Of a DNA stretch of 64,000 bases, positions 16,551 through 63,554 are shown in pieces. The first letter of the stretch is position 1. The number at the start of each line of letters is the position of its first letter. The position numbers and the translations under genes were made by a program. This DNA is from Chrysomallon squamiferum. Lineage: Eukaryota; Mollusca; Gastropoda; Neomphalida; Peltospiridae. Location: assembly GCA_012295275.1 (NCBI GenBank), contig CM022676.1, positions 4,089,894 to 4,153,893 of the forward strand, read 5' to 3'. The notes beneath the pieces were generated by a model, which worked only from the letters and a program-made list of their open reading frames with translations, searched no databases and was not told the DNA's origin.

Positions 16551-16655
16551 GTTTTGTACAGAATTTCAAGAGGGTCGGCATACAAGAAAAAGACAAAGTT
16601 TTCGAAGGTTTTACGCATGATCGGAGATGACGTAGTTTGTCAGTGTGTTAAATAA
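16551..16655 (+). other. conserved short exon-like segment at the duplication edge
   Basis: A tgtacag acceptor-like site precedes a short open segment (NFKRVGIQEKDKVFEGFTHDRR then stop in one frame; KVLRMIGDDVVCQCVK then stop in another). The same bases reappear at 31501-31570 directly after the assembly gap. It sits downstream of adaptor C in the first copy and where adaptor E should end in the second. It may be an alternative adaptor 3' exon or merely part of the duplicated flank. No family is recognised. Confidence 0.3.
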
Positions 16656-16926
16656 TAATAATGTAAAAACTCAAAGTATAATCAGTTTCGTGTAGACAGT
16701 CTTTTCTTAGACTCCTGAAGTCAGTCGATTGAATCCAGTCTATTACAGATTACAGTCTATTACAGTCTATTTTACAAAGAATATAAAGGGTGTTTTACTT
16801 ATGAAACAGAAAGTAAACGTGGTAACGTAGCAACAGAAAAGAAAACAAGGAAGAATTTAAAACAAAAAAACGTAGCTAAGAAAGTATATACTTTTATTAA
16901 AGACAGTGAAAACTAAAATACTGGAA

Positions 16927-16986
16927 ATGAGTTGTAAGTTATTCGTGTTACTGGGATGTGTATTGTACGTACAAGTTACGTATTTT
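16927..16986 (+). pseudogene. orphan receptor signal-peptide exon, donor destroyed
   Basis: MSCKLFVLLGCVLYVQ is a near copy of the receptor signal-peptide exon (compare [19 protein letters not shown] at 18399). The donor that should read caag-gta reads caagtta, and the frame runs into a stop. The flanking intron-like sequence (ctgggtggagtcgacgtcat near 17041) matches R3's intron 1 (about 51570-51600, inverted). It is therefore the decayed 5' end of an R3-type receptor left upstream of R1. An equivalent at 31843 has lost more. Confidence 0.75.
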
Positions 16987-60268: not shown

Positions 60269-62915
60269 TTCCAGTTTCGACGCCTTTTTTGTTTTACTGC
60301 TGTTAATGTAAAAGCAGTTTTCGACGCCTTCTTGTGTACTTTATTCGTTTAACGTATCAGGTTTACTTCCTGCTTCATACACAATATGAACACAGGTGTC
60401 ACTGGCTCTGCATGTTTATTAATAAACTAAATCCACTCGACTGAATCAGAAAAATACACAATGCAATATGTCACACAGCGTTGAATTTTGAATAGTTATT
60501 TCTGCTTAGAATTTTTTCTTCTTCGATTTTTTATTTTTTTCTTTTATTTTATTTCTTTTTTTATTTATTTATTTTTTTTTTTTTTTTTATTTTTTTTTTT
60601 ATTTTTTTTTTTTTTTTTTTTTTTTTTTTTTATACCTATTTTTTTTTTATGTATATTGAAAATATAGTATATATGTTTTGTTGTATTTTACCTGAATAGG
60701 TGTCGTTATTTCCATGTTTGAATATATACATGTAGTGAATATCTATATATGTGTGTGTTTGTGTATGTGTGCGTTTACACACACATACATATATATATAT
60801 ATATATATGTGTGTGTACATACATGAATGTACTTTGTGTAAATGTGTGTGTGTGTGTACATCTGCAGTGGTACACACACCAGCAGTATTATATAGGTTTT
60901 ATTTGATTTTTTAAGAGAAAAATATATATATATATATATAGTAGTTGGTGCAATGTATATACAACATTTATGAACGTAAATGGTATATGGGAAGCGTGTG
61001 TGTATAGATTAAGAAAATTGTGCAAAGGACAGTTATCAATATTGTTTGTATGGATGATGTCCATTGAATTTAAAGCATGATATCATAAAACACAGTGGTA
61101 CCTTGTATTCGACTTGGTTAGTGCCCGTAAATTCGATATGTGTATGAACCATACTGAAGAGTCAGCCGAAAAGGCTGTTAAACGTTAAAATAATTTGTCC
61201 GATCTCCAAGATAAATATTCTTTACAAAACCAATTAATTTCTTTCTGTTTATTTTTTTTTTTTTTTTTTTTATTATTATTATTTTTAAAAGTTACCAAAA
61301 ATGGGGGGGGGAGTTCGGAGCTTGAGTGGATTAATTGTATTTCAGTTAATTTCAGTTGGTAAAAACTGATTTGATATACGGGAAAACTGACTTACGAGCT
61401 CTGCCACGGAACGAATTAAACGCGTAAGTCAATGTACCACTGTGTGTGTGTGGTGTTTGTGTGTCTGTGTGTGTGTGTGTGTGTGTGTGTAGTGTGTTTC
61501 TCTTTTTATAATCAGAAATTTTTTAATCAAAATTCTCGGGGGTGATAATTTATTGGCTGCAGAGATAAAGGGCGGCCATTTTGATTTGTGGCGTTAACCT
61601 AGATAACATAGATGTTTGTCAAGTTTTGTTTGTCATGTTTTGACATGGCTGACCCGTTTTACTCTGGTATGTTGTAACTCTACACTCTATTTAAAACCAA
61701 CCGTGAATGAAAGAAAACGCACAAAAGATATAACCCAAAACACAAATACTCTTTCTGTCAAGTTATTAAGTAGCATACTTTTTCTATTTTGTTCGGTTTT
61801 ATACTGGAATATGTTTGTGTGTGTGTGTGTGTGTGTGTGTGTGTGTGTGTGTGTGTGTGTCTCTGTGTGTTATTATTGTTGTTTTGTTATTATTATTATG
61901 TTCACTTTATTACATATTTTAATATTGTATTACATTACGTTATATTGCGTTACGTTATTCTGTGTAGTCTACTGTCATGTTATGATATATTATGTTATCC
62001 TGTCTTATATTATGTTATGTTATTGTTTCATATTTCGGTCTTTGTTACATAAGCAACAATAAGCAATAAAATCAAACAGTACAGAGAGAGACATTTAACA
62101 GGAAACATGCAGACGCAGAAACAATGTTTAAAAAAATATAATAATAAATAAATCCATTCCAAGCCGTGTATTACAATATAAAAAATATAAAAAAATCGAT
62201 TCGTACGCCCGAACCCTCGTCCAACTTTTACAGAATCATCACATAGAATTATGCTTCACTCAATGTAAACAGACAATAAAAATATGAAAAACTCACAAGT
62301 ATCACCAAAAAAGAGAACAGCTTGGACAGATATAGTTTACGAAGGTGTGGAAAAGAAACTCTTGATAGTATAAAAAATAAAAAACTTTAAATATAGTTTT
62401 ATTCTGCCATTGTCAGCCAGGAATTACATTTCTCACGTTACTGTTATACAATAAAATAGAGACTTTCATGACGTCAAGGATCTTACATCTGAGCAAATAT
62501 AAAAAATTAAAAGATGAAAAATGTGCGAATGAGACCAGTGTTACCGAGATTGATCAAATCTTTCTTTTAATTAATGTACAGGGGTGTAAATATTTAAATT
62601 TTACGTCATAAATCTCCCGAAATTTTCACATAGTTCGAGTCACATCTCAGACAATGTTATAGAATGATTAAAAATTCGCTATTAGCAACTCATTAAAGTA
62701 TTTATAACATTTCTCACAGGTAGCTATTTACACAGTTCAAATCTGGTGTCACTTTAGAAACTGAAGTCTTTGTATTTTAATTAAAAAAAAACTTTTAACA
62801 AATTAATATGCTACAAGTTTTCATAAAACAGTTTTAAGAAGTACATGATTAACAAATAGAACTTGTTTTCTTCTTTAACATTCATGACAACAATTTCGTT
62901 TATTTTCAAACTTTA
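60269..62915. other. intergenic region between R4 and R5
   Basis: The R4 5' flank (to about 60420) matches that of R1, inverted. A long T-rich tract follows (about 60560-60632), then TG/TA repeats. From 61560 to 62040 it matches, inverted, the orphan-exon region of R1 (16990-17580). From 62140 to 62900 it matches the R4 3' flank. No coding exon was identified. Confidence 0.6.
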
Positions 62916-63554
62916 TCACATCTCTGTATCTTGTTGTACAGCCGCTGGCGCAGTCTGATTATCTGAAACATGCAATGAAATTTTCCTTTCTATAAAAACT
63001 TGTGAGGTATGGAGAAAACAATAATCGTGCTAACGTGTGTGTATGTACACATATATAAACACACAAACACAATTTTAACATAAAATAACTATTTAGTTAA
63101 GGTGTATATGAAACATAAATGAAATTAGTATTTAGAATGTTTCTATTTTAAGGCTATCTCATCAAATCGAAAATCGAAAAATTCGAAAATTTCTAAACAT
63201 TTCGGTTAAGGCTTTGTCAACTTATATATATATATATATATATATATACGATTTATAACCGGAAAAGAAACAACTATATCTATCTATCTATCTCTCTATC
63301 TTTATATGAATGACATATTCCCATTCTCTATACATCATAACAGTAAGACAACCTTGTTGTTTTCTTTTGTGAAAGTGTCTGAATAAATGTATGATTAGCA
63401 AATAATACTTATTTTGTTCTTTATCATTTATTAACATCAGTTCACTTACCATCAGGTATTAAGACGTCATATGCGAACTCATATCCTCTTTCTCCTAGAG
63501 AAGAATATGAATTCTCTGAATCTTGAAGTTCTGCTGCTGCTACAGTCTGATTAT
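62916..63554 (-). CDS. 3' end of ITAM-bearing receptor R5 (rest beyond window)
   Basis: Two minus-strand exons are visible: 63450-63554 and 62916-62962. The first encodes NQTVAAAELQDSENS followed by an ITAM, YSSL-GERGYEFA-YDVL, with an additional tyrosine inside the spacer, and ends with donor gtaagt in phase 1. The second repeats the beginning of the same exon type (NQTAPAAVQQDTEM) and stops, lacking any ITAM. It appears to be a tandem duplicate of the ITAM exon with the motif deleted, now serving as the final exon. The Ig and membrane exons should lie right of position 64000. Confidence 0.65.

Follow-up and report, generated by a model that had tools for sequence, protein, structure and literature searches.

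Linkage of tandemly expanded ITAM-type immunoglobulin receptors and GAREM-type adaptors in the genome of Chrysomallon squamiferum

We analysed a window of 64,000 nucleotides from the deep-sea snail Chrysomallon squamiferum (contig CM022676.1, hereafter C12, positions 4,089,894-4,153,893) and searched the whole genome (404,604,130 bases, 22 contigs) for relatives of its genes. Two gene families were recognised in the window: GAREM-type adaptors (n=6) and immunoglobulin (Ig) receptors (n=5). An earlier note on this DNA had described six adaptors with CABIT, SH3-ligand, tyrosine and SAM parts and five Ig receptors, four of them bearing an immunoreceptor tyrosine-based activation motif (ITAM); these are present as A1-A6, A6 being a fragment, and as R1-R5, with an in-frame ITAM in R1, R2, R3 and R5. 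No third family was recognised among open reading frames of at least 100 amino acids and partial frame translations, a survey without a gene finder that short-exon genes could escape. The receptor and adaptor families are linked. On balance, we think it somewhat probable that an adaptor array meets a receptor array in the window, both belonging to one large snail locus that has expanded in tandem and carries two parts of one pathway. The sequence is best read as a putative co-expanded locus of activating receptors and GRB2/GAREM-type adaptors.

The genome-wide searches scored 84 of 87 adaptor candidates and 126 of 636 receptor candidates; weaker relatives on other contigs are possible. Adaptor exons matched 89 times, 83 times on C12 and six times on C14. 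The main C12 adaptor locus (4.043-4.132 Mb) holds 12 copies, with the A6 fragment as a thirteenth, and further loci lie at 4.494, 7.768 and 8.018 Mb, the last comprising last-exon pieces only. Receptor matches with E<=1e-5 number at least 128, all on C12 among the matches listed, and form two clusters, at 4.109-4.490 Mb and 7.368-8.042 Mb, together covering 5.6% of C12 and 0.26% of the genome. Measured from these clusters, the four C12 adaptor loci are 0, 4,295, 0 and 0 bases away. The first of them straddles a cluster edge and extends 66 kb past the first scored receptor exon. Under random placement on C12, all three isolated adaptor loci would fall within 10 kb of the clusters with P=1.9e-4, a figure whose assumption of independence may not hold. 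The co-inherited pathway proposed in the earlier note thus stands as far as linkage is concerned, which reaches far beyond the window; that the two families serve one signalling pathway, we still infer from sequence.

Flanking DNA was also fetched; it contains N stretches that could conceal genes of either family. In its readable parts, the leftmost receptor exon lies at 4,072,870, with none further left, and no adaptor exon was found right of 4,132,313. Therefore, the window is placed at the junction of the two arrays. The mixed zone is built of adaptor(+)-receptor(+)-adaptor(-) units, of which A3-R1-A4 is the only one readable throughout; two further units, A6-gap-R2-A5 and one at 4.068-4.078 Mb, are broken by 200-N gaps. 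The receptor/adaptor pair previously noticed as duplicated is indeed copied as a unit (R1-A4 and R2-A5; Table 1), with 96.4% identity across 10,835 aligned bases, gaps excluded, and part of a third copy is present to the left of the window. On C14, five of the six adaptor matches belong to one distant gene at 14.497-14.499 Mb, and the remaining one, at 6.81 Mb, matches SAM weakly. The translated last exon of the distant gene (L027, C14:14,496,614-14,499,330) carries YVN and a SAM domain, and is without EYxTL and PxLPPR.

Transmembrane proteins with an ITAM carry the consensus YxxL/I-x6-8-YxxL/I in their cytoplasmic tails. R1-R3 share six exons in the order signal, Ig1, Ig2, transmembrane, short YYNP exon and ITAM exon. 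Their ITAM, YSSLx8YDV[LI], follows the transmembrane exon in frame; in R5 the ITAM exon is in frame and its transmembrane part lies outside the window. Another in-frame exon of this type was found in the right flank, at C12:4,170,281. The motif is taken as real because it follows the transmembrane exon and is conserved in paralogs and another snail. Motif counts alone were rejected as evidence, the window containing 298 raw six-frame matches, many within simple repeats; matches of higher complexity numbered 36, versus an average of 13.35 across 20 first-order Markov simulations. The short tail exon, new relative to the earlier note, bears a YYN that fits pYxN, a GRB2 SH2 ligand, and is thus a putative GRB2-SH2-type site. 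A profile of five Ig1-type domains found its best solved-structure matches in T-cell receptor (TCR) V-beta domains (E 0.0017).

Among the domains assigned to the two families, Ig and SAM are well supported by Pfam and solved-structure searches, and CABIT more weakly. The CABIT piece of A4 scored 24.7 bits against the Pfam cut-off of 24; the whole proteins A4 (22.8 bits, E 7e-5, profile positions 1-151 of 255), A5 (17.8 bits, positions 5-152) and A3 (15.6 bits, positions 1-63) fell below it. Each of these three proteins has one CABIT match, not the two domains that define THEMIS. A3 matched SAM_1 with 28.8 bits (piece) and 24.2 bits (whole protein) against a cut-off of 23, and A1 matched SAM_2 with 21.2 bits against 20.5; SAM in A2, A4 and A5 scored below the Pfam cut-off. 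A SAM profile built from A5, A3 and two snail homologs gave 2dkz (LOC64762; E 3.2e-8) as its sole solved-structure match below 1e-3, which we take to represent the human GAREM1 SAM domain; a match to a ribosomal protein (E 0.0079) was attributed to chance. The adaptors thus have the C-terminal SAM domain of the GAREM type (A3 SAM_1, A1 SAM_2, 2dkz).

The adaptor linker is tyrosine-rich, with PxLPPR or PPPIPPR and the tyrosine motifs YE[TL][LF]EP, EYxTL and DYV. PPP[LI]PPR is present in A1-A5 and is a putative GRB2-SH3 ligand. The DYV motifs are repeated in the linkers of several window adaptors (for example at 39251-39882) and absent from two homologs in the snail Gigantopelta aegis. An AlphaFold model of the adaptor tail was set aside, its mean predicted local distance difference test score being 38.4.

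The same genome holds other CABIT genes, on C6 and C1. One on C6 (L001) scores 112.5 bits and carries PPPLPPR, and therefore the window adaptors are more likely a divergent GAREM-type branch than the direct GAREM ortholog of this genome. In a nine-row tree, the six C12 adaptor copies included group with 99/99 support; the tree has six inner branches, one starred and four open. On C6, at least four further CABIT genes (L002, L003, L005 and L006; C6:15,609,200-15,647,454) form a separate tandem cluster, all on the minus strand.

Both families recur, with common motifs, in the confamilial G. aegis. The receptor protein search yielded three G. aegis proteins (P0001-P0003) and two Dreissena polymorpha proteins, five in all. 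P0001 and P0002 retain YSN, YSSLx8YEGL and YEN, an ITAM pattern with the x8 spacing of C. squamiferum; P0003 ends ahead of any tail, and the two D. polymorpha proteins contain no match to the ITAM pattern. A protein search with an incomplete adaptor model of 455 amino acids found nothing among 2211 candidates, and an adaptor profile search found two G. aegis proteins, P0006 and P0007. These keep most of the CABIT region (P0007 begins inside it), NVYE, EYxTL, PELPPR, YVN and SAM, and have no DYV repeats. All their Pfam matches were below cut-off: CABIT (13.6 bits) and SAM_2 (17.6 bits) in P0006, and SAM_2 (13.7 bits) in P0007, which gave no CABIT match. The longest contigs for receptor P0002 and adaptor P0007 both measure 53,390,639 bases, and the two genes are therefore taken to lie on one pseudo-chromosome; P0001 and P0003 are on short contigs. 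Because the G. aegis genome has 15 pseudo-chromosomes in 1.15 Gb, according to the part of its description drawn on here, a shared contig is weak evidence by itself. The synteny check thus recovered both families, with incomplete linkage. The available part of PMC7895826 lists CEACAM5 among the expanded immunity-related families of G. aegis.

The receptors are most variable in Ig1. Between the two unit copies, Ig1 is 88.2% identical (306 sites), versus 96.5% for noncoding DNA (8,522 sites), 98.9% for Ig2 and 100% for the ITAM exon; the excess divergence of Ig1 is significant (Fisher 9.9e-10). Across Ig1 of R1-R4, variable columns make up 22 of 32 in three loops resembling complementarity-determining regions (CDRs), against 10 of 71 elsewhere (p 7e-8), with loop boundaries that were drawn after the alignment was viewed and guided by the TCR V-beta match. 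The ratio of nonsynonymous to synonymous change (dN/dS) is 1.19-5.20 in the loops of all six receptor pairs; framework values are 0.17-0.69 for five of these pairs, that of the sixth being undefined. The likeliest source of the hotspot is recombination or conversion together with diversifying selection. In the adaptors, dN/dS is 0.35-0.55 for the CABIT exons in five of six pairs and 0.41-0.58 for SAM in all ten pairs, which argues that both regions are kept as protein; the linker gave 0.73-1.01 in six pairs.

These data suggest that the receptor and adaptor families evolve as one pathway, and their co-amplification names the adaptors as candidate physical or functional partners of the receptors. 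We tentatively propose a heritable haplotype in which activating Ig receptors with variable CDR-like loops are co-amplified with dedicated, GRB2-bridged CABIT-SAM adaptors, the two being inherited and diversified together. The receptors themselves are read as single-pass Ig proteins whose V-like Ig1 diversifies at the CDR-like loops, with Ig2 and the tail changing much less, and whose tail has its own activation module, a pYxN site plus an ITAM. Upon ligand binding, a Src-family kinase would phosphorylate the tail, a Syk-type tandem-SH2 kinase would dock on the ITAM and GRB2 on pYxN. An SH3 domain of GRB2 would then hold the adaptor by its proline motif, bridging receptor and adaptor, after which the adaptor tyrosines in YE[TL][LF]EP, EYxTL and DYV would be phosphorylated and ERK signalling would follow; the SAM domain may oligomerise the adaptor. 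Each binding and kinase step, as well as an immune role, we infer. The GRB2 bridge is proposed because of the known logic of ITAM receptors and the association of GAREM with Grb2. According to the part of PMC8086153 used here, that association occurs via a proline-rich region, and GAREM itself is tyrosine-phosphorylated.

Several observations weigh against reading the locus as a receptor/adaptor pathway. The full-length adaptors stay under the Pfam CABIT cut-off and cover at most positions 1-152 of 255, and in the closest pair, A4-A5, dN/dS is about 1 (CABIT exons 1.05, linker 1.01). The adaptors extend further left and the receptors further right, so that the interleaving is partly the mere meeting of two arrays. 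A distant adaptor paralog on C14 is unlinked to receptors, and the adaptor P0006 lies on a different G. aegis contig (47,477,099 bases). The receptor search scored only 126 of its 636 candidates. Loop dN exceeds dS at p<0.05 in just one of six pairs, and synonymous change in Ig1 is also elevated between R1 and R2 (p 5e-4); therefore, recombination, not selection, may account for part of the hotspot.

The strongest alternative is that functionally unrelated neighbouring families were amplified together in a duplication-prone stretch, a hitchhiking effect that we regard as possible. Tandem duplication takes neighbours along, and the R1-A4 unit was copied whole; in the readable flanks, the adaptor array stands alone on one side and the receptor array on the other. 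The isolated adaptor loci may share one ancestral neighbourhood, so the chance figure given above overstates their independence, and P0006 retains its motifs on a separate contig, so the motifs are independent of linkage. However, adaptors persist within the second receptor cluster too, about 3 Mb away, and GRB2-type motifs occur in both families and are retained in G. aegis, whereas EYxTL and PxLPPR are missing from the translated last exon of the unlinked C14 paralog.

A second alternative, which we consider unlikely, concerns the sign of the signal: the tandem YxxL tail may be inhibitory or mixed, recruiting SHP2-type phosphatases as CEACAM1-like proteins do, with the adaptor tuning it. NCBI labels the G. 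aegis homologs CEACAM1-like and CEACAM5-like, P0001 and P0002 have weak Pfam matches to SIT, an SHP2-interacting adaptor (E 0.06 and 0.17), and some tyrosines, namely the first in R3 and the second in P0001, have a serine at position -2, which fits an immunoreceptor tyrosine-based inhibitory motif (ITIM). The oyster receptor CgIgIT2 (five Ig domains, ITAM) is, in addition, termed inhibitory in a reference title within the review PMC11999971, as far as the part drawn on goes. However, the x8 spacing fits the ITAM consensus and is identical in both snails, and at position -2 the tyrosines of R1 and R2 have N and E, as the second tyrosine of R3 has E, none of which is I, V, L or S. Finally, we consider it quite improbable that uncollapsed haplotypes in the assembly account for part of the unit duplication. 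Unit copy 2 does begin immediately after an N gap, the third copy is likewise shortly preceded by a 200-N gap, at C12:4,071,915, and the probable source assembly came from a heterozygous animal (1.38%; PMC7142155, part of the source), but the copies diverge by 3.6%, more than this mean heterozygosity, their outer flanks differ (A6 beside A4, R3 beside A5) and the linkage across clusters does not depend on the R1-A4/R2-A5 unit.

The gene models behind the receptor and adaptor assignments are given in Table 1. Each adaptor gene has six coding exons. The fifth, of 168 nt, was spotted through a 152-nt block conserved in the same intron of A1-A5, and its frame is open between phase-1 splice sites; the initial model of 455 amino acids was one exon short, as revealed by this conservation in five copies, and was dropped. 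A further coding exon was sought in adaptor intron 3, where only repeat-like similarity was found. The acceptor of A4 exon 2 is CG, with an AG six bases further on, and the last exon of A2 is frameshifted near 8502-8510. In R4, an insertion in the signal exon causes premature termination and the ITAM exon has lost its frame; these two lesions probably reflect a pseudogene or sequence errors. The frame-disrupting changes in A2 (8502-8510) and R4 (54532-54646 and 60204-60268) may be pseudogene lesions or long-read assembly errors. Degenerate extra copies of the signal exon lie upstream of R1 (16918-16988) and R2 (31834-31889), probably as leftovers of further receptors. A decayed ITAM exon at 62880-62990 ends short of the tyrosines, and similar decayed copies lie at C12:4,180,690 and 4,209,147.

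Table 1. Coordinates of the features of the window, numbered from its first nucleotide.
Feature	Position	Strand	Exons and remarks
Adaptor A1, 3' part	36-2136	+	36-224, 554-721, 1322-2136; exons 1-3 left of window
Adaptor A2	4993-8902	+	4993-5049, 5318-5464, 5750-5873, 6878-7066, 7439-7606, 8078-8902
Adaptor A3	12056-16298	+	12056-12112, 12503-12649, 12876-12999, 13829-14017, 14841-15008, 15403-16298; open frame, 526 amino acids
Adaptor A4	24070-27508	-	27452-27508, 26587-26733, 26288-26411, 25528-25716, 25119-25286, 24070-24920; open frame, 511 amino acids
Adaptor A5	39032-42420	-	42364-42420, 41462-41608, 41163-41286, 40445-40633, 40077-40244, 39032-39882; open frame, 511 amino acids
Adaptor A6, fragment	30858-31300	+	30858-30914, start of exon 2 31262-31300; cut by N gap
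SAM region of A1	1918-2133
SAM region of A2	8684-8899
SAM region of A3	16080-16295
SAM region of A4	24073-24288
SAM region of A5	39035-39250	-
Receptor R1	18399-22950	+	signal 18399-18456, Ig1 19223-19528, Ig2 20113-20391, transmembrane 21307-21424, YYNP 22392-22438, ITAM 22814-22950; 314 amino acids
Receptor R2	33272-37899	+	signal 33272-33329, Ig1 34091-34399, Ig2 34988-35266, transmembrane 36205-36322, YYNP 37323-37369, ITAM 37763-37899
Receptor R3	47157-51707	-	signal 51650-51707, Ig1 50661-50969, Ig2 49701-49979, transmembrane 48624-48735, YYNP 47765-47811, ITAM 47157-47293
Receptor R4	54532-60268	-	five Ig exons; YYNV exon 54881-54927; signal and ITAM exons disrupted
Receptor R5	63450-63554	-	ITAM exon alone (YSSLx8YDVL); remaining exons outside window or not found there
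Unit copy 1	16585-27649		R1 convergent with A4
Unit copy 2	31501-42560		R2 convergent with A5
N gap, 200 N	31301-31500		directly before unit copy 2

Each of the two families resembles known systems. GAREM proteins have one CABIT domain, a proline-rich region and a SAM domain, and the CABIT family has been traced to cnidarians (PMC4082722, part of the source). The window adaptors share with GAREM1 and GAREM2 the domain order CABIT, PxxPxR, tyrosines and SAM, with a SAM domain closest to 2dkz, but their CABIT match is weak and they form a divergent snail branch arranged in tandem; the LPYEEL site described for GAREM1 (PMC8086153, as far as available) was not seen in A1-A5 when checked by eye. 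THEMIS1 and THEMIS2 also belong to the CABIT proteins; they bind GRB2 and function in TCR or B-cell receptor signalling, according to the same part of PMC4082722. The analogy to TCR-THEMIS drawn in the earlier note is nevertheless loose, since THEMIS has two CABIT domains whereas the window adaptors have one CABIT plus SAM in the GAREM layout, and other CABIT genes lie on C6 and C1.

On the receptor side, oyster CgIgIT2, with five Ig domains, a transmembrane segment and an ITAM, is described in the review PMC11999971 as acting through ERK. Like the snail receptors, this mollusc Ig protein bears the ITAM in its tail, and R4 likewise has five Ig exons, but adaptor linkage is unmentioned in the part of the review used here. 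The G. aegis CEACAM1-like and CEACAM5-like proteins, CEACAM-like being only NCBI's name for these homologs, are homologous receptors, and P0001 and P0002 share the pYxN and ITAM tail; they differ in their 44-45% identity to R1 (aligned parts), in Ig-domain number and, for P0003, in having no tail. The allorecognition receptors Alr of Hydractinia and fuhc of Botryllus, tied to ITAM/ITIM motifs, are also clustered, variable invertebrate receptors, but linked CABIT adaptors are unmentioned in the part of PMC12065747 consulted. Mammalian CEACAM3, described in partly available literature as fast-evolving, with an ITAM-like sequence and a role in phagocytosis of bacteria, is at most a functional analogue of the snail receptors.

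Titles and abstract openings in the openly licensed literature contained no description of a linked CABIT/ITAM locus among the matches listed. Receptor and adaptor are of known kinds, and their linked, co-expanded arrangement appears new. To our knowledge, ITAM receptors are known in invertebrates and the adaptors below them have mostly been guessed from vertebrates; co-amplified receptor and adaptor families name a candidate signalling partner directly, and the question becomes testable. If the proposed co-expanded pathway is correct, it would tie a CABIT protein to ITAM-type receptors beyond the jawed vertebrates, in which THEMIS is known, and a recognition part and a proximal signalling part would be inherited and diversified as one locus.

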